DNA from: Symbiodinium natans
Lineage: Eukaryota; Sar; Dinophyceae; Suessiales; Symbiodiniaceae
NCBI GenBank assembly: GCA_905221605.1
Contig: CAJNDS010000435.1
Location: forward strand, 107,501-171,500
Direction of reading: 5' to 3'
Length of the DNA: 64,000 nucleotides
The position numbers were made by a program, and so were the translations under genes. Of the stretch, positions 2,627 through 64,000 are shown one piece after another; within the stretch, counting starts at the first letter, position 1; each line of letters starts with the position of its first letter. The notes under the pieces were generated by a model. It was not told where the DNA came from. It worked only from the letters and a program-made list of their open reading frames with translations, and did not search any database.

Positions 2627-4741
2627 GTTTGTTTCTTCGTCAACTCTGGTTCCGAGGATCTCGACCAGCGCCGTGTGATAAAGCAAAGTCTGTGCATCTC
2701 ACCGGCAGGCAAATGATTTGGCTGTTCGACTGGCATTTGCACGCCCACGCCTCAGCCCAGTCTTGCACTTTCAGTTGCGGTAGCATCGGTTGCCATCTTC
2801 CTCGCAAGTAGATGTCCTTTGGTTGGTTGTACCAGGTACGAGCTCCCGGAATGTCATTGTGGTCGACCATGGGTGCCATCGCATCAGTGCCAAAATGGTT
2901 CGGAAAACAACTGAAGTCCGCTTCTTCTTCTTCTGCCGTCTAGATAGCCAGCCTGGCCAGGTACCATGGCCACACTCAGCAGACGATAGAGAGCTTCGAT
3001 TGCTCATGGATCAGTGATGGAGCTTAGCTTGCACGATTTTGCAGAGATGGTTGCTGCCCCACTCAGGATCAGTCCGTACAAGTTTGACCACAAAGGAGGC
3101 GAAGGTGCGAGGTCGAATATCCACAAGGTGCTTCAGTTTACGCCCTTCGGCTTGCCCGGGCTTGCTCCATTGGGTAACTCTAATGGCTCTAGGTGTCAAC
3201 ATGCAGGTGTGATCTTCCCGGAACTTTTGGTGAAGCAGGAATTTCCAAGCAAACTCCCAAATGCCGGGTCACAGGAGTCGCAGGTTAAAACCTTGAATGG
3301 TGTTCGCGTATGATTGAGTGCCTCCTCACCTGCAAAAAATCAGTTGCGGCCGAGCAGTGGCGGTCAATCAGCAGCATGGGCGCACCAAGTTCAGGCTTGA
3401 TAATGCTTGTCTTGCAGTTAGCCTGTGGATGCTTGTGCGCCTGGGCGGGGGGGGCTGCTGATATGCAAGCCGCAGCGACAGCCTGGAGGGCGTGTTTTTG
3501 CGAGCGTTGTGTTGGCGAACACATCAATTCAAGGCCCCAGAATGTAGTCCAGCAAGGGTGCATTGCGTAAGCCGAAGCAGAGGCACTTGCGCTTCTTCCA
3601 GCAACAAGAATCTGCACTACTGAAGTCTTTGCCTAGCACCGTATTGTGTTTAGTGCACTGCACTTATTGTAGCTGAGTTTAGAAGCAACCATCTTGAAGC
3701 CAAAGCTCGGTGGAGCTTCCTTCCTTGAGCATCAACAAGAGCAGTGGCCTACCCAGCTTTCCGGAAGTTGCTCCGTTCCAAAGGGTCCCGATTGCGTCTA
3801 TTGCCATCGATTTTCGAAGGAGAGCAGCAACCCGCTAAGTCGCAGTGGATATGTCTCTATTCGTTACAGTATACAAGTTAAATGAACATGAACCACATTC
3901 AGCCACGCCCTGCGAGGTGCCTTGTCCAGATACATACCGGGGACCACATCGCGGGTCGGATGCAGCAGGGCAGTATGCGGCAACAGTAGAAGCAGCGTGC
4001 AGATCAGCCGGGGATGTTGCAGCCTTTTTTGTTGAATCAGGCATGTCAGTAGGTGGCGTCATTCTGCCACCTAAAGGTTACCTTGAAGCAGCTTACAAAG
4101 CTGTACGACAGGCAGGAGGCGTTTGTGTCGCTGATGAGGTTCAGGTAGGCTTTGGGCGCTTTGGCGACTATTTCTGGGCCTTCGAAGAGCAAGGTGTGGT
4201 ACCGGATATTGTGACCATGGGCAAACCGTTTGGGAATGGCATGCCTTTGGCTGCAGTGGTAACGACAAAGCAGATATCTGACGCGTTTCACAATGGTCTC
4301 GAGTATTTCAATACTTTCGGAGGCAATCCTGTGTGTTGCGCTGCTGGTTTGGCTGTATTGGATGTCATCAAGGAGGAGGGGCTGCAAGACAACGCTGCGA
4401 AGGTTGGCAGGTACATCTGCGAACAGGTGCGACAGCTCTCAGCAAAGCATCCGCTAATTGGTGATGTCAGGGGCCGTGGCCTCTTCATCGGGATTGAGTT
4501 TGTTAGGGACCAAGAGAAAGAACCAGCAACTATGGAGACCTCTGAGATTTGCTCGCGAATGAAGAGTGAGCACAGAATATTGATGAGCATTGACGGGCCG
4601 CATGATAACGTTCTCGTCATCAAGCCACCAATGTGCTTTTCCGTCGCTGATGCAGACTGTATGGTGCGTGCAATGGACGAGATTCTTTCCACACTTGTAG
4701 GTCCCATTTCTGGTGTACAGGTCACACACACGCCCACCTGA
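2627..4741 (+). CDS. Class-III PLP aminotransferase family, ethanolamine-phosphate phospho-lyase-like (5' incomplete)
   Basis: Readable exons are 2627-2656 (VCFFVNSGSE), 2709-2732 (ANDLAVRL), about 2836-2886 (NVIVVDHGCH), 3067-3104 (ISPYKFDHKGGE) and the long last exon 3903-4741. In family order these give the PLP-phosphate segment SGSEAND, the CPDTYRG motif of ETNPPL/AGXT2-like enzymes, the cofactor aspartate in ADEVQVGFGR, the Schiff-base lysine in TMGKPFGNGMP, and FNTFGGNP. The last exon starts at an AG and continues the frame of exon 3067-3104 across a 798-nt intron. The ATG near 3848 is intronic and is not the start. Exon 2627-2656 is followed by a GA-type donor. By family this is a PLP enzyme that releases ammonia, phosphate and acetaldehyde from phosphoethanolamine, or a related aminotransferase; the exact substrate is inferred. 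The N-terminal third is unplaced and the short 2733-2835 junction is uncertain. Confidence 0.85.
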
Positions 4742-16640: not shown

Positions 16641-18539
16641 ATGAGCACGGCTTTTCGCCAGGGGTTTGCACGCATGGGACGGCGCGCTCTCCTGCTGACA
16701 TTGGCGGTGGTTAGACTAGGTTGTTCAGCAGCGGTCGGCCTTCCTACCATCGACTACTTGAACCTGAATGCGGAGTCCGAGTTTCTTCTACAAGCGTTTG
16801 CGACCGAGGGAATTTTGCTGGTCCCTGGTGTGCCGGGCTATGCGGCTGCAAGAACCGCAGCTCTGGAATCACTGACAGCTTGTGTCGCCCGTGGCCAAGG
16901 AAGAGTCAAAGCATTAAGAAGGTTCCTCCAAGATGGCTCAGAGCGGCTGACGATTGCTGCCAAAACTCATGGCCATGCATTGCAGCCTCTGTTCATCGGA
17001 TGTCCAGACTTCGAGCAAAAGGCAGACGTACTTAGGACCGCCATACATGTTGCTCTGACTGAGGTTCTTCGTGTGTGGGGACAAGCAGGGAGTCAGGAAG
17101 TGATCCTCCGACATGATGCTGGTCACCCATATGCAAGCCTAGCAGAAGCGGCCTCGAATGCAACGCATTTGGAGCATTTCCACGTCTATTCCAACAAAGA
17201 TGATAAAGATGGCAGCGCTTCCACATCTCGTGCTAGCCTTGGCCTTCACACGGATGCCGGTCTGCTCCTTGCCTTCACCTCACCACTGTACTCACTCTCT
17301 GCTTCAGTCCATTCCGATCATGACGCAAGCGGACTATGGATTCAACGTGTGAACTCCTACGTGGAGCCTGTAGACCTTCCGACGAATGCAGTTGCCTTTG
17401 TTGTGGGCGAAGCCGCCACCTGGCTGCCGTGGGCGAGCCGCCCGCTGCCCCATGAGCTGCGCCTGCCCCGCATGTCTGAGCGAGCATGGTACGGTGTCAT
17501 GACACGCCTGCCGGAAGACGCAGTGAAGGTCTCAGGCTTCGATCCCACGTTGCGGCATCAACTGACTTTTGGCCAATGGTGGGACAAGGCTGCCGATTCG
17601 CTAACATCAGAAGATGCATTTGGCTGTGGTCAGCTGCATGCAGCTGACCCCACACACCTGTGTCCAGAAGGAAAAGCTTATTGTTGGATGCAATGCATGA
17701 CTCTACCACCAGCCTGCACGGCCAGTTCGGCCCACTGCGTGCACCCAGATGGTACTCCATGGGCGAATCACAGCGAGATGTGCCCAACATGTACACTAAC
17801 TTGTCCTGCTTTTGAGGGCTGGGACTTCTGTGATGAGGCTGCTGCTTCTGATATGATCATGCAAGGATTCGTCAGCTTCTCGGCCGGCAACAAGATGAGG
17901 CCTTGTGTCATCCTATTCTTTCCGAGCTGGGTCCTCAACACTTGGTGGAAGTTTTGGCTTGGAGTAGGCGGTGTGCTCTTGCTGGGTGTCACTGTCGAAT
18001 GGGTTTCCACTCTGCATGTGTCGCCCGATCGCAAACTGGGACGTTTATGGCAAACGCTTCTATACTGCACGAGGATGACACTTGCTTATCTGGTAATGCT
18101 AGCGGCCATGACCTTCTGCATTGAAATTTTCGCCGCTGCTATTGCAGGATTGGGTCTCGGACATGCTTGCTTCAGCTCACAGAAACAGCGATTTGGCGGA
18201 TTGAGCGGACCTTCCCTTTGCTGCAGTCATGGAGAGCTTAGGCGCCGGCACTCGCAGGACATTCGCGTGACCCCTTGCCTGCAAGCCGATGATTGCATAG
18301 TCTTGCGTGTGGGGGGAATGACCTGCGGAAGTTGCGCTCAGACGGTGACCCATGCGCTCGAAGGCGTAGCTGGGGTTGTATCAGCCCGAGTCACTTTGGG
18401 CCCAGCTGCAGAGCCAGCAATCGGTACCGGTCTGGGTACAGCGGAAATCTTAGTGAACGCAGGTTTTCCTGGAGCAGATGCTGCTGTTGCTGCCGTTGAG
18501 CTGGTTGGGTTCGACGCGCAGCCTGTGCCAAAAGCGTGA
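16641..18539 (+). CDS. Multidomain copper protein: 2OG/Fe(II) oxygenase-like + Cys-rich + Ctr transporter core + HMA domain
   Basis: An intronless reading frame of 632 aa from the ATG at 16641 (an ATG at 16674 is also possible). Residues 16-35 form a hydrophobic signal or anchor (ALLLTLAVVRL). Residues ~45-300 look like the double-stranded beta-helix of 2-oxoglutarate/Fe(II) dioxygenases, with HTD (H203, D205) and a distal His (H271 in LPHELRLPR). Residues ~325-400 carry ten Cys. Residues ~432-510 hold three membrane helices with Ctr hallmarks: MLAAM (MxxxM, M486/M490) in helix 2 and GLGLG (GxxxG, G503/G507) in helix 3. The C-terminus (~553-632) is an HMA domain with GMTCGSC (C562, C565). By family, Ctr proteins form trimers that pass Cu(I), and HMA domains bind Cu(I). 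The oxygenase activity is inferred from the metal triad only. The usual Met-rich Ctr ectodomain is absent; the Cys-rich part may replace it. Confidence 0.88.
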   Translation: MSTAFRQGFARMGRRALLLTLAVVRLGCSAAVGLPTIDYLNLNAESEFLLQAFATEGILLVPGVPGYAAARTAALESLTACVARGQGRVKALRRFLQDGSERLTIAAKTHGHALQPLFIGCPDFEQKADVLRTAIHVALTEVLRVWGQAGSQEVILRHDAGHPYASLAEAASNATHLEHFHVYSNKDDKDGSASTSRASLGLHTDAGLLLAFTSPLYSLSASVHSDHDASGLWIQRVNSYVEPVDLPTNAVAFVVGEAATWLPWASRPLPHELRLPRMSERAWYGVMTRLPEDAVKVSGFDPTLRHQLTFGQWWDKAADSLTSEDAFGCGQLHAADPTHLCPEGKAYCWMQCMTLPPACTASSAHCVHPDGTPWANHSEMCPTCTLTCPAFEGWDFCDEAAASDMIMQGFVSFSAGNKMRPCVILFFPSWVLNTWWKFWLGVGGVLLLGVTVEWVSTLHVSPDRKLGRLWQTLLYCTRMTLAYLVMLAAMTFCIEIFAAAIAGLGLGHACFSSQKQRFGGLSGPSLCCSHGELRRRHSQDIRVTPCLQADDCIVLRVGGMTCGSCAQTVTHALEGVAGVVSARVTLGPAAEPAIGTGLGTAEILVNAGFPGADAAVAAVELVGFDAQPVPKA

Positions 18540-18910
18540 GCAGTCCGCTGCCAGCATTCAACATGTCAGCTTTGGTACTGTACCTAGTCTATTTTCACCT
18601 GAAACTTCTGTGCTCTTTGCATGACCCGTCCGGGTTCTGCGGTGTGGCGAAAAAAGAATTGTCGAACGACAGGCATAGCAGGGCATAGTCTCAAAGTCTC
18701 TTTGCATGCATAGCAGTAGTACAGCTGTAGGCTGTAGCAGTGAAGCTTTTCTCTGCAAGATGCGGAGCGGCATAACCAGTGCTCAAGTGATCGTGCGCGG
18801 CGAGAGTTCTGCGAGCATCGCGCCAGGCTCGAGCCCGTAGAGAGCATCGAGTTGGTGAACATTTTGTGACGCTGCCGGGAGTTGGACACTCGCTGGAGGG
18901 CTGTGCAGTT

Positions 18911-18996
18911 GTGCCACGTTGTGCCACGTTGTGCCACGTTGTGCCACGTTGTGCCATGTTGTGCCACGTTGTGCCACGTTGTGCCACGTTGTGCCA
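18911..18996. repeat. 10-bp tandem repeat GTGCCACGTT, 8 copies plus a partial
   Basis: Perfect head-to-tail decamers at 18911, 18921, 18931 and 18941, one variant at 18951 (GTGCCATGTT), three more perfect copies, then GTGCCA. The low divergence points to recent expansion. There are no spacers, so it is not a CRISPR array. Confidence 0.95.
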
Positions 18997-22590: not shown

Positions 22591-24287
22591 TCGGGAGATG
22601 CGACCGGCTCCGGTACCGCAAGGTCTTGGGTCAAGGCCCAGCGACTGGCTGGATAAGCTTCGAAGCAAACGGAGCGCCACTGATCACCCCGGTCAAGCAT
22701 GTTTCGTTTAAGGAAACATCTTGGCTGGAGAACACACGATACCAGGAGATTGCGCAAGTGCGCTTCGTTGTGGAAGCAGACTGCAGTGACGTTGGCGATG
22801 CTTTGGCCAAATCGCTTCAGGGCAGTCCGGGTGTCATTGGGCCGGATGCCTGCCCAGGCATTGGCAACCTGCACTGGAGAGACCCTTCGAAAAGACAGAC
22901 GGGGCTCCCTTTACCAATCCCGGTCTCTGAGCAGTGGCGGCAAGTAGTGTGTGCCAGTACGGAGTTTTCTGAAGAATCGGTGTGGGAGGGTGGTGTTGAC
23001 AACTCGACGGCATCCTTCTCTTTGGGGTTACGGCCACTTTTCCCCTCAGACGAACGCATTGAACGGCTTGAGGGCTGCCCGGGCTGCGCGGACTGTTCGT
23101 TTCGAGTGTGGGTTGTGAGCGATGCATCGAGACAGGGCCCACTTCGGGCCAGAGAAATGGTTCAGTCCACCATTACTTCGTCAGAGGAGCCTTGTGCAAA
23201 GCCGTCGCGACGATTTCATTTGCGAATCGACTGTGAACGAATTCTTGAAGCTACTGTGAAAGGACTGGGCTCAGAGATGGCTCGTGCATTGGAGAAGTAC
23301 TTCGAGCCTGGTTGTGTTTTGTGCACTTGTGAAGTTCGGCCGCGGGCAGACGGTCGGACGGAGTTGATTCGCGGACTCTTTGGTGGCAGCATACTCATGG
23401 AGTCTGTACCTGGCTCAAAGCCTGCAGGCAGGCCCGATTTTTCAGAGGCAATCCCCTTGCTGGCTAGCCAGATCCTTTTCATGCTGGATATGGAGACCCA
23501 AGTTTGGCTGTCAACTCATGGCTTCCATTTAGTGGAAATCTGGCGTGGAATACGGAGACCTTTTCAATGGGCAGTGTTCAGCGCAATGAACGCAGCTGCC
23601 TCTCAAATCTTTGCTCTAGGGAGTGCCACTGATACTCTGACGGAGCAAAAGCTTGGGCTTCATCTGCCTTTGCAAGCCATCGATGAACTGCGGGAAATTC
23701 TGCCAGATTGCAAGAACCCCGTTGGCACCAAGCAGGGCCAGTTCACGGAAGGTTCTGTGGACATCTTGAGTTTTGTGCAACTTGTGAACCGTGTTTGCAA
23801 GAGAGCGGACATGAGCTCCGACATCTTCCGGGAGTTTACGGATTTGGGCTCCGGCCGAGGCCATGCGCTTCTTGCGGCGCACGCGTTTTTCCCATTTCGC
23901 AAATGTCGCGGATATGAAATTGATGAAGAAGCCTTTGCTGCTGCGGAAGCGTCGGCTTGTCAGTATGTTCGTTCTGGATTGGCTCTGCGAGCTCAGTCCA
24001 CAGCACTTCCTCACAAGATGTTTCTTGAAGCAGACTTTGTCGACAAGCCAAACTGGACAGACTCTTCTGTCGTATTTGTGAATGGCGTGACTTGGCCCAG
24101 CAAGCTAATAGCTGACACAGCAAGGCTGGCACTTCGACTAAAGCCGGGTTCTGTGATACTTGTTGTAGCTCGGCGCTTCCCTGTTGACATGGAGATCCTG
24201 CAAGCGTTCGATGTACGTGGGGATGCATGTTTGCTGAGCTTCTCGCAGACTCGGCCTTGTCAGGTTTTTGTCTATCAGCGCAGATAA
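22591..24287 (+). CDS. DOT1-like class I SAM methyltransferase (5' end unresolved)
   Basis: An open frame continues from a probable acceptor AG at about 22589-22590 to the TAA at 24285-24287; there is no ATG near the 5' end, so at least one upstream exon is likely. The C-terminal ~170 residues are a class I SAM-methyltransferase fold: motif I FTDLGSGRGHALLAA (aspartate codon 23841), then an acidic loop GYEIDEEAF and the strand VVFVNGVTWP. The DLGSGxG plus VFVN pairing resembles the DOT1 family (histone H3-K79 methyltransferases). The N-terminal ~380 residues are not recognisable, except that RKVLGQGPATGWISF resembles a short motif I recall from other dinoflagellate proteins (not checked). DOT1's NF active-site pair is NG here, so histone methylation is not assured; a DOT1-fold enzyme with an unknown substrate is the safer call. 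Confidence 0.75.
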
Positions 24288-32802: not shown

Positions 32803-34814
32803 ATTCAGACAATCGGACTCTTTGAGCTGGTGCTTTGCCACATTTGGGAGCCCGTTCTTTTGGTATCTGATCTTTTCCTGGTCTGAGAAAAGCTCAACGG
32901 ATCCATCCGGCTCCAAAAGTCGGCTCCAAGGCGTTTCCGCGTGGCATCTAGCGAAGAAAGCAGGTGCGTCGACGTAGCGTCCTCTAGCACGACATTGATA
33001 GAGGGTGTCGATGTCGTGTCATTTTCTCACGGAAGTGTCCACGTGCCCGATCTTCCAAGTCGGGCGCAGCGTCAATCAAAAAACTAAGACCCTGGGGCTC
33101 AGTCCGAATGCTGTGACCGAGTCGGAAAAAGCCGGGGCTCAGTCCGAAGAAGGCCTCGCCCCAGTCGGGAAAACCAGCGGGTGCTTTCAGAAAGACAAAC
33201 GCCTCAATGGAAGAACGTGCTGGGCAGGGCGCTTTTGTGAATCTGCGTTTTCTTTCCGAGATCTCCTAGGAATCAATTTGAAAACGGAAGGATTCTGTCA
33301 AGCCGCAGAAGAAAAGAAGTTTTCCCAATGGAATGAAGCCCCTTCCCTCTGGGGTTGCGGGTTGCCATTCCTGTCTCAAGCGTGAGGCCTGAAACCAGAC
33401 CTGTTTTGAAGATCAGATTTGGGCTTAGCTTCCAATTTTTGGGGGTTGCATGCTTTCGGCTAGGGTCTCGGGATGTCTCGGATGTCACACTGTCGGGGTG
33501 TCTGCCTTCGAGCTTTGGCTGGTCATGGCTTTGCCTTGGCGCTCTCTGTTGCTCTCAGCTCTGTGTGCGTGTGCGCTGTTGTATAGCACCTGAGCCGCGA
33601 CCATGGCCTCTACACGGCTTCTCCGATCCTAGACGTGTGCGATTGACCGTGATTGACCAGATGACTATTGTGTTCTTGCGATCCCGTTGCGGTGCGCTCG
33701 AAGGTTTCGAGCTTGTTGCGGTTTCCTACTGAGCCTCTTCGTTTTCCATGTGCACACGTTTTCCCACTGGAGTCTTGCTTTTCTGATTGGTTGTTGCTTG
33801 TCTTCGAGCATGAAGTTGGGACGAACCTTTGTTAGGTCATGGCGCATGTCTGCGGCTATTTTGAGTCTTCTGCATTTTCCGACTCGGCCTTCGCGGTTTC
33901 CGAATCAGCCCAGTGCGTTGTCGGATTGCGCCGGAAGCGTTTTCTGACTCGGCCCTTCCGTTTTCTGATTGCAGCTTTGCGTTTTACTGCCCGCGTTTTT
34001 CCGATTCAGCCCTCATGCCTTCCCAGTCTGCTTTGTTTGGGATGCGGCTGGCCACTGAGGTGGACCTCTTGTACGAGTAGCAGTAGTTCCGGATTTTGTT
34101 GATGTGGCAGTGGTTCTGAGGCAGCCCGCGGCTTGTCGTGGTAAGGATTGAAAGATATCCTGGAACATCATGTTTTCATATTTCCTCTGAGTCGGCCAGT
34201 TGCAGCTGTTGTCATCGTCAACTCCTCCTGCTCGAGCATGCACAGGATGACGAAGCCGAGCCGGATACTGGCGCTAGAGGGAGCAGCGAAGATGTTCAGG
34301 AGTTTGGAAGCTTGCCCATGCAGTTGTAACGTTATCACATTCACGTGTGAGGAGGTAGCGGGTGCCATCAATGAGAAGCTGTTCCTTGAGGACAACTTCG
34401 CATTTGCATTCGTTAAGTGTTTTGAAGTTTGCTATGCCAAACTTTTCATCTGAAGCCTCCATACAAAGAGACGTCTTCCGGACACGCCAAGAAACATGCC
34501 TGTCAAATGCACTAAAGTCACTAAAGCCACACGAATAGAATGCCGAAGCGAGATCCAAATCCAGCGTGTGCCTGGTCACCAGAGCCATCTTCACGCAAGG
34601 CCCGTGGAAGCGTTTACGGCAGCTGCCCAAAATTCCCGCCCTGGGGGTGGCTCGAACTACATGCTCCAGCTGCGTGTTGTGCGTGCCAAGACCCTGGATC
34701 CAAGGGCCATTAAGATAATGTTCCCATGTGGAATGTGCCACAGTAACGGCAACCAAAAGGGCGGCGGTAAGTCATTGCAACAAACAATGTGCCGGCAACG
34801 ATGCCTGAACGCAG
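32803..34814. other. Spacer with degenerate repeats; weak upstream frames
   Basis: It includes repeats of GGGGCTCAGTCCGAA at 33.1-33.2 kb and of TTCCGATTCGGCC-like units at 33.87-34.02 kb. Possible exons upstream of the acidic-tail exon (for example FTCEEVAGAINEKLFLEDN near 34.34-34.41 kb) are too weak to call. Confidence 0.4.
33870..34020. repeat. Degenerate ~25-bp minisatellite (TTTCCGACTCGGCC)
   Basis: Units reading TTTTCCGACTCGGCCTTCG, TTTCCGAATCAGCCCAGTG, TTTTCTGACTCGGCCCTTC and TTTTTCCGATTCAGCCCTC follow one another with drift. Confidence 0.6.
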
Positions 34815-38600: not shown

Positions 38601-38941
38601 TTGCGCTCGCGTGTGCCGTCATTGCCGTCTCTCGTGGAAGCGCCAAAGGGCACCGCCAAGGGCACTGCAAGGGCAAGGCTTCTTGAGCTTCCGGTTGAGA
38701 GCTCAAAGTGATTGCAAATATGGCAACGGCTAGAGCTCATTGAGGATCGGCTTAACAGTGCTTGGCTGTTGAGACTCAGACAGCACTCTCTGTTGCTTAT
38801 GTGCACCGTAGAACCGGCCGTGTAGTCTGCTGCTCGAACAATGTGGTCGGATCAGGAATAGCTTTATATGAATGTCTTTCATAAGGCGGCAACAGTCTCT
38901 AGAAGCACGAGTTTGCAGTTAGGACCTCTCCCGTGAGTCTC

Positions 38942-40271
38942 ATGGCCGGTACTGCGGAGCGTGAACCCGACGCCGGGTATCAGTCAAACATCGCAAACGA
39001 GTCAAACGAGTCCATCCTCCTTGACCAACTCCGACTGCGAAACCAGCGTGCATGGATGGCAGTGACAAACAGTCAGGGAATGCTGATGCCAAAGTCTTTG
39101 CTAAAGCTTTGCATGAAGCAAGCGGTTCCGACTGAGAATCAGAATGCAGAGCATTTGCTGCGAGGGCTGCTGGAGGCCGAACTGAAGAGGAGTGACACCC
39201 CAGGTGAATGCAAGGAGGTTGACACGGAATCCTTGCGGAAAGAGTTTCTGCGGCTCTGTCAGCAGTTTGCGCCTGAGAAGGAATGCTTGGCTTACGAAGA
39301 ATGGCTGCGCTGGGATGGGTTGGATGCAACCATAAGTGCAGAAGGTGCCCGAAGCCTTTGGCTTAGACTAGTTGGTCCTGGAAAATCCGCAAGTGAGGAG
39401 GACTTCTTGCGGCTTGCTCGTGTGATGCGGCAGGAGTGTGGTCTTGCCACAACCATTCAGTCCTTCCTTCGCGGGAATGCGGGCAGGCGCAGAGCCCGAC
39501 ATGAAGCACGGGAAGCCAGCGATAGCCTTGAGAATACGTGCCTGGAGAACGCTGCAAAACTGGCTCCCTACAATCCAACCCCAGACTGTGCCATAAAGCA
39601 GGCTTTGGATGCGCTTGGCGTGCAGAGTGGGGACACGCTGTATGACTTGGGATGTGGAGATGGACGAATGCTGCTGGCAGCAGCCAGACGAGGAGCGCGA
39701 GCGGTTGGAGTTGAATATGATTCCCGCTTTGCGCAAAAAGCATCGGAAGCGATCCGTGAAGCTGGCCTTGAAAGCTTGGCCGAAGTCATCTGTGGTGATG
39801 CGCTGAAGACGAACCTGTCAGACGCGACAAAGATCTTTGTATACCTGGTTCCTGATGGTCTACGCATGATGAGCGTAGCTTTGTCAGATGCAAGTCGACG
39901 AGGTGTGCCGATCGCTAGCTATCTTTTCGCTTTGCCGGGTTGGAGCCCGAGTGCAGTTCTTACGTCTGACACACGAAGCATCGAATGCAAGGTTTGGATG
40001 TACCAGGACTTCACAGCTTCTCCAATGGTCGAGAGCTCCAGGGACAAAACTGAGGAGGAAAAGCCTGCATTGTTCCTGCGCGGGCTTTACATAGCAAAGG
40101 TAGTCATGTCCCAGAAGGTATCCGAACATGATGGTTGCGAAACGTTCTGCGTTGCTGGCATAGCCTGCTTGGTAAAGACATCGTAGGTTCTTGCATTCTT
40201 TTTGACCTCGTACGACTGCTTTGCAGTGGGTGTCCGAGATGAACCGCGTCATGTGTCGCCTGCCTTGGTAG
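38942..40271 (+). CDS. IQ-motif protein with FAM173/ATPSCKMT-like methyltransferase domain
   Basis: Exon 1 is 38942-40099, from the ATG in CTCATGGCC. A 127-nt GT-AG intron (40100-40226, phase 0) follows, then a short last exon 40227-40271 ending CRLPW-stop, for 400 aa in total. Residues ~95-165 are helical and recall a degenerate EF-hand pair (EEWLRWDG, SASEEDFLRL). Residues ~171-186 are a complete IQ motif (IQSFLRGNAGRRR), which by family binds calmodulin or EF-hand light chains. Residues ~205-350 are a class I methyltransferase with the FAM173-type lead PYNPTP and motif I YDLGCGDGRMLLAA, followed by VGVEYD. The FAM173/ATPSCKMT family trimethylates lysine in mitochondrial ANT or the ATP synthase c-subunit; the substrate here is unknown. 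The IQ motif ahead of the methyltransferase is not usual for that family and suggests calcium control. No mitochondrial presequence is evident. Confidence 0.85.
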
Positions 40272-62965: not shown

Positions 62966-63914
62966 ATGGCAATGGTCGTCGACTGCGGAGGGCACAGCTT
63001 CAAAGCTGGGCATTGCATGGACTCCAAACCTGGCATTGTCAGATTTGTCAAAGACAGGGAGTGCAAAGCGGAGTGCAAGAACGACAACTTCCAGGAATGT
63101 CTGCGAGATCATCGCTTTTGGCACTCGCTGATTGGGCAAAGATCCCAAGACTTGATCATCTCACTGCCTGTGTGGACATTCAGAACAACGAAAGAAGTTG
63201 TCTTTGAGATGCTTTTCGAACACTTTGCAGCAAAGTCTGTCTGCATGGTAAGCTCGGCATTCTTGGTGGCCCTCGCAGCTGGAAGCTCGAATGGAAGCTC
63301 GACGGCTTTGGTCGTTGATATTGGCGCGTCAGGGACGAGTGTCACACCAATCGAAGAGGGCTATCCCTTGACCGAGTGTGTTGCGCGAAGCCCTGTAGGA
63401 GGAAACGCACTTGACGTATTGATGTCCCAGTTCTTGCAGGATGCTGGCGCGGTGCTGCCCGATGGCATGACTTGGTTTGAAGCTGGGAAAGTTGCAAAGG
63501 AGGAGTTGGCTTGGGTGGCACAAGACTTTGCCTTGGAGCTTCAGCACTTGAAGCAGGAAGTGCAGAGGCCGCCAAAGCCACAAAGGTGTGACCTCGTGGG
63601 TGTGGGAGGGCAGCGCTGCGCTTTTGAAGCCATCCGGGGAGAAGGTTTTCGGTGTGCAGAGGTTTTCTTTGATCCTAACAGAGTTGGTGGTGTTTTTGGC
63701 AGTGATGACTTTCCTGGACCAGTTCAATCATTGCCAGAGCTGGTGCTGGCCAGCTTGCGCCTACAGAGCAACATCAACATACGTGGTCAGCTTCTCCAAA
63801 ATGTTGTGCTCGTGGGAGGAATGTCGCAGCTACCAGGTTTGCAAGAGCGCTTGGCCATGGAAATCAAGCGCCCTAGCTGCGAAAGCCTGCCGACTCACAA
63901 TGCTATGACCTGCG
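62966..63914 (+). CDS. Actin-related protein (ARP), first exon; continues beyond the window
   Basis: From the ATG at 62966 the frame starts with a phosphate-1 loop (MVVDCGGHSFKAG, compare DNGSGxxKAG in actin). It then has the phosphate-2 segment VVDIGASGTSVTPIEEGYPL and the subdomain-4/3 segment NVVLVGGMSQLPGLQERL (actin: NIVLSGGTTMxPG). Order and spacing are actin-like, but DNase-loop residues are missing and identity to actin is low, so it is a divergent ARP and not conventional actin. The frame ends at a strong donor (GTAAGA from 63915; an in-frame TAA at 63917 is intronic), and the C-terminal adenosine-binding part (WIGGSIL region) must lie past the right edge. ARPs act in dynactin, Arp2/3 or chromatin remodelling; the subclass cannot be set from this part. 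Confidence 0.8.
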
Positions 63915-64000
63915 TGTAAGATCCCGGGTTCTCGTAAGTATCGTTACTTGTCGGTCTCATCGTCTTCGCCGTCCGAAAAGTGCCAACAGTTGCGAGGATG

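Follow-up and report, generated by a model that had tools for sequence, protein, structure and literature searches.

Can a single polypeptide capture copper outside a membrane, pass it through a channel and receive it on the other side? To our knowledge, the supply of Cu(I) to the outer mouth of Ctr channels and its hand-over to cytosolic chaperones have so far been studied with separate, transient partners. The question is raised by a gene of the dinoflagellate Symbiodinium natans, found in a 64,000-nucleotide stretch of contig CAJNDS010000435.1 (assembly GCA_905221605.1, positions 107,501 to 171,500 of the forward strand), which is called the window here and supplies all coordinates below. 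We consider it likely that this gene encodes a Ctr-family Cu(I) channel in which the Met/His-rich ectodomain has been replaced by a folded 2-oxoglutarate (2OG)/Fe(II)-oxygenase-like domain and a Cys-rich connector, and in which the tail has gained an HMA copper-chaperone domain. In such a natural fusion, with an outer domain and a cytosolic acceptor both anchored to the pore, capture and hand-over could be followed within one molecule.

Four modules in one open frame

The fusion protein is encoded by a single exon on the plus strand (16641..18539; 632 amino acids plus the stop), as are all features described for it below. The exon lies in a stop-to-stop frame of 652 codons, open from 16581 and closed by the stop at 18539; it is the longest open run across the six frames of the window. 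For runs of 633 codons or more, the base composition predicts 2.8e-9 in the window, and each of the remaining five frames carries 17 to 34 stops across 16641 to 18539. Translation would begin at the ATG at 16641 or at that at 16674 (giving MGRRALLL). A hydrophobic start, a long ectodomain, a Ctr core and a C-terminal HMA domain follow one another in this frame. A preliminary description of the DNA, made by reading the letters, had reported an uninterrupted frame with an HTD, a distal His, ten Cys, MxxxM, GxxxG and GMTCGSC; the frame is as it said, and when their positions were checked the motifs sat where it had placed them.

A long frame can also be an illusion of annotation, with in-frame introns or adjacent genes read as one and the modules carried by separate messages. 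The sole other HMA match in the genome, a 51-codon frame (contig C2208), suggests intron-split genes and lends this explanation some weight, but 652 codons pass without a stop, the Ctr-HMA linker is merely about 110 to 120 bases long, and every module has clean boundaries within this one frame, so that we judge such an artifact very improbable. No spliced-leader relic was seen: with a leader sequence as the query, the best match in the window was 15 of 21 at 34579, and the ten best matches all lay away from the gene. Directly downstream, tandem TGTGCCACGT-like decamer repeats were noticed by eye at 18910-18996.

The channel core and its copper-chaperone tail

The Ctr core (amino acids [aa] 403 to 512; 17847..18176) matches Pfam PF04145 with 36.8 bits in the whole protein and 42.4 bits as a fragment, against a curated cut-off of 25.3. 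Its MIM motif opens a run, MIMQGFVSF...ILFFPSW, that leads into the first of two hydrophobic segments (aa 437 to 460 and 472 to 512). The Met selectivity-filter motif of the second transmembrane segment (TM2), MLAAM (MxxxM; aa 486 to 490; 18096..18110), and the GxxxG motif, GLGLG (aa 503 to 507), both fall in the long second stretch, which is taken as TM2 and TM3. A poor single-sequence model of the whole protein has helices at 429 to 457 and 464 to 517, the latter of which could span TM2 and TM3 but is unsplit. In salmon Ctr1, the Cu(I) filter is built from MX3M Met triads (PMC6437178). The protein is a Ctr with conserved filter residues; the profile score, MxxxM and GxxxG bear out the identity first proposed.

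We searched the organism's own genome (759 Mb, 2,543 contigs) exon by exon, a procedure that may miss intron-split genes, so that its counts are lower bounds. PF04145 gave at least five matches (150 of 159 candidates were scored). Those on C1779, C946 and C368 proved on reading to be low-complexity and were dropped, leaving the fusion gene and a conventional Ctr (C1823; L014:4788-5297) with a His-rich N-terminus, MDHDHGHHM, and a CC pair near its end. The fusion core is 33% identical to this protein across 121 columns; the fusion therefore exists beside a conventional counterpart.

The tail between Ctr and HMA, predicted to be cytosolic, also carries a CC pair (aa 527 to 528; 18219..18224), whose equivalence to that of the conventional Ctr is judged by eye, as MAFFT leaves the pairs unaligned. 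The HMA domain (aa 552 to 632; 18294..18536; GMTCGSC at aa 559 to 565) scores 30.4 bits against PF00403, for which the cut-off is 24.8, and has the beta-alpha-beta-beta-alpha-beta order of a ferredoxin-like fold; profile, motif and fold agree with its earlier naming. It dominates the fold look-up of the full-length model, in which nearly all rows shown cover the HMA part alone. Matches to Ribosomal_S11, DUF6286, DUF3021 and Htt_bridge fell below cut-off and were judged to be chance.

A probable oxygenase-like ectodomain

The probable N-terminal signal segment (aa 12 to 34; 16674..16742) has as its best 19-residue window ALLLTLAVVRLGCSAAVGL, with a Kyte-Doolittle mean of 2.02, and may act as a signal peptide. 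It is followed by the N-terminal ectodomain (N-domain; aa 34 to 310; 16740..17570), for which the HxD...H...R anatomy and a homologue-aided model, built on an alignment with oxygenases, support an oxygenase-like character. Profile comparison without such aid gives a marginal result, and a hydroxylating or redox role for the domain is putative. In the alignment with bacterial oxygenases, HTD (aa 203 to 205; 17247..17255), whose H203 and D205 are putative Fe ligands, occupies their invariant HxD columns. H271 (17451..17453), which is the His of PHELR and the putative distal Fe ligand, occupies the column of the invariant distal His, and R281 (17481..17483), the putative 2-oxoglutarate-binding Arg, is aligned with the R of RYS. 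The alignment spans LPTID at the start of the domain through R281.

A series of results weighs against this assignment. Neither Pfam, queried with the whole protein and with fragments, nor NCBIfam gave an oxygenase match to E 10, and PDB sequences offered no convincing match to the N-domain. With a HMMER profile from 11 oxygenases the domain scored -2.4 bits, which was equaled by 54 of 1,000 shuffles (477 of the 1,000 returned any score). In hhalign its score was reached by 7 of 300 shuffles, by 4 of 300 with the core alone and, once the profile was enlarged, by 8 of 300; in an initial run the highest-scoring of 60 shuffles exceeded it (21.0 versus 20.5). The whole-protein model (mean predicted local distance difference test score, 42) is unusable in this region. 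Searched segment by segment, then, the preliminary architecture held for Ctr and HMA, which were matched, and for the HTD, distal His and spacing of the oxygenase-like part, which was itself recognized by no profile (Pfam, NCBIfam or our own HMMER profile).

These scores would suit an ordinary Ctr gene with an unrelated folded N-terminal extension that resembles an oxygenase by chance: as many as 8 of 300 shuffles do equally well in hhalign, HMMER sees nothing in the domain, and the supporting model rests on an alignment that included oxygenases. We think this explanation unlikely, since the alignment is continuous from LPTID through R281, and since the pattern HxD-GL-GE-H-R, although composed after the protein was seen and fitting just 6 of the 11 known oxygenases, occurred in none of 200,000 shuffles and in 1 of 198 open stretches of at least 100 aa in the window, that one being the fusion protein. 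Three kinds of PDB sequence match to the N-domain (E 0.69 to 1.1) and two in plasmid records (E 3 and 7) were judged to be chance; besides the domain itself, the genome gave one match (E 6.98, with two stops), judged to be noise.

Whether an oxygenase fold in this position would be active is a separate matter. R281 stands in the context R-A-W, where bacterial oxygenases mostly have R-x-S, and HxD and GL are 28 residues apart, versus 15 to 17 in known oxygenases; because of these departures the ectodomain may be catalytically dead. A degenerate, non-catalytic fold kept for binding metal or ligand (in copper capture, in sensing or as a trimer scaffold), with no hydroxylation, has close to an even chance in our estimate. 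The altered Arg context, the 11 to 13 extra residues and the weak profile scores all favor it, as does the appearance of yeast Cdt1, whose domain is an inactive 2OG-oxygenase fold, among the fold matches. Extracellular Fe(II) and 2-oxoglutarate are, moreover, scarce. Against it, HxD, the distal His and the Arg have all been preserved, residues that a fold surviving only as structure could have lost. More doubtful is an active oxygenase that gates or feeds the Ctr pore by modifying or freeing copper ligands, or by acting in this way on the Cys-rich mouth of the channel itself, while the tethered HMA takes the copper; if true, a single chain would combine an enzyme, a channel and a chaperone, a new layout for metal import.

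Between the ectodomain and the core lies the Cys-rich connector (17625..17831), with Cys at aa 329, 341, 348, 352, 359, 366, 381, 384, 388 and 397. Its fragment aa 336 to 410 had no family match in Pfam.

Genomic setting, proposed working and known systems

Relatives of the whole protein were sought in IMG/VR, where 4 stretches fit a pattern and none was confirmed, and in GTDB genomes, where 21 fit and none was confirmed. These results count against the proposed architecture, but both collections are not meant for eukaryotes, and absence there therefore says little. Among the titles and abstracts searched in the literature, none described a fusion of Ctr with HMA or with an oxygenase-like domain; UniProt and InterPro lay outside that search and may list the architecture. 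The eight listed open reading frames of at least 220 aa in the window are all on the plus strand. Also noticed in the window were a class-III aminotransferase fragment (3845-4741; PF00202, E 9.8e-53), which matches profile positions 153 to 403 only, so that its 5' exons are probably upstream; a single 553-aa frame with a DOT1-like methyltransferase match (22626-24287; PF08123, E 1.3e-8); a methyltransferase domain (38933-40186; PF13649, E 3.2e-8) preceded by an N-terminal region in which an IQ-like motif was seen by eye; and a fragment of an actin-related protein (62966-63919; PF00022, E 3e-37).

For the fusion protein, the module order fits Cu(I) import toward a cytosolic acceptor. Beyond the module identities, the topology, trimer, transport, hand-over in cis, and ectodomain catalysis or copper binding of the following model are inferred. 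The signal segment would place the oxygenase-like and Cys-rich parts in the secretory lumen or outside the cell, a placement suggested by the hydrophobic start and by the side on which the Ctr N-terminus lies. The protein would trimerize through the Ctr core, the outer parts, lying at the mouth of the pore, would bind copper, reduce it or release it, and Cu(I) would cross two Met rings formed by MLAAM. At the cytosolic pore exit, the CC pair and the tethered HMA would receive Cu(I) and pass it on to P-type ATPase or chaperone partners. It is reasonable to propose that the protein would form a self-contained copper-acquisition device, and it would point to an unexpected role for the oxygenase fold in copper handling. 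It may, with a probability that we put somewhat short of even, act in an internal membrane (vacuole, Golgi or symbiosome), where it would supply the cytosol from copper stores and not take copper up from outside; a lumen would probably offer a 2OG oxygenase a better cosubstrate supply than seawater, and the conventional Ctr could perform surface uptake.

The usual Ctr ectodomain is short and unstructured. With Ctr/COPT transporters (PF04145), as represented by salmon Ctr1 (PMC6437178), the fusion shares the profile, the MxxxM filter, GxxxG, an MxM before the first hydrophobic segment and tail Cys; unlike them, it has a probably folded domain of about 300 aa and ten Cys ahead of the core and an HMA behind it. 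Like the HMA domains of copper ATPases and Atx1/CopZ (PF00403), its HMA has GMTCxxC and a ferredoxin-like fold, but it is tethered to a Ctr channel, neither joined to an ATPase nor free. Work by Page in 2009 on Chlamydomonas CTR1 and CTR2 reportedly concerns a Cys-Met ectodomain motif in a CTR, and the fusion has a segment with Cys and Met ahead of its Ctr core; we know of no oxygenase-like domain or HMA in those proteins. The ectodomain resembles IPNS-like 2OG/Fe(II) oxygenases (PF03171; DAOCS, 1rxf) in the HxD..H triad, the Arg, the core order, most spacings and the modelled fold, and differs in its lack of a profile score, R-A-W, the insertion after HxD, the signal segment and its membrane anchoring. 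Cryptococcus Cbi1/Bim1 is like a lytic polysaccharide monooxygenase, with a histidine brace. This extracellular copper-binding protein serves uptake through Ctr1 (PMC9258870), which by analogy offers a precedent for an extracellular copper-binding partner of Ctr1; there the partner is a separate protein, whereas in S. natans the outer domain is fused to the Ctr itself.
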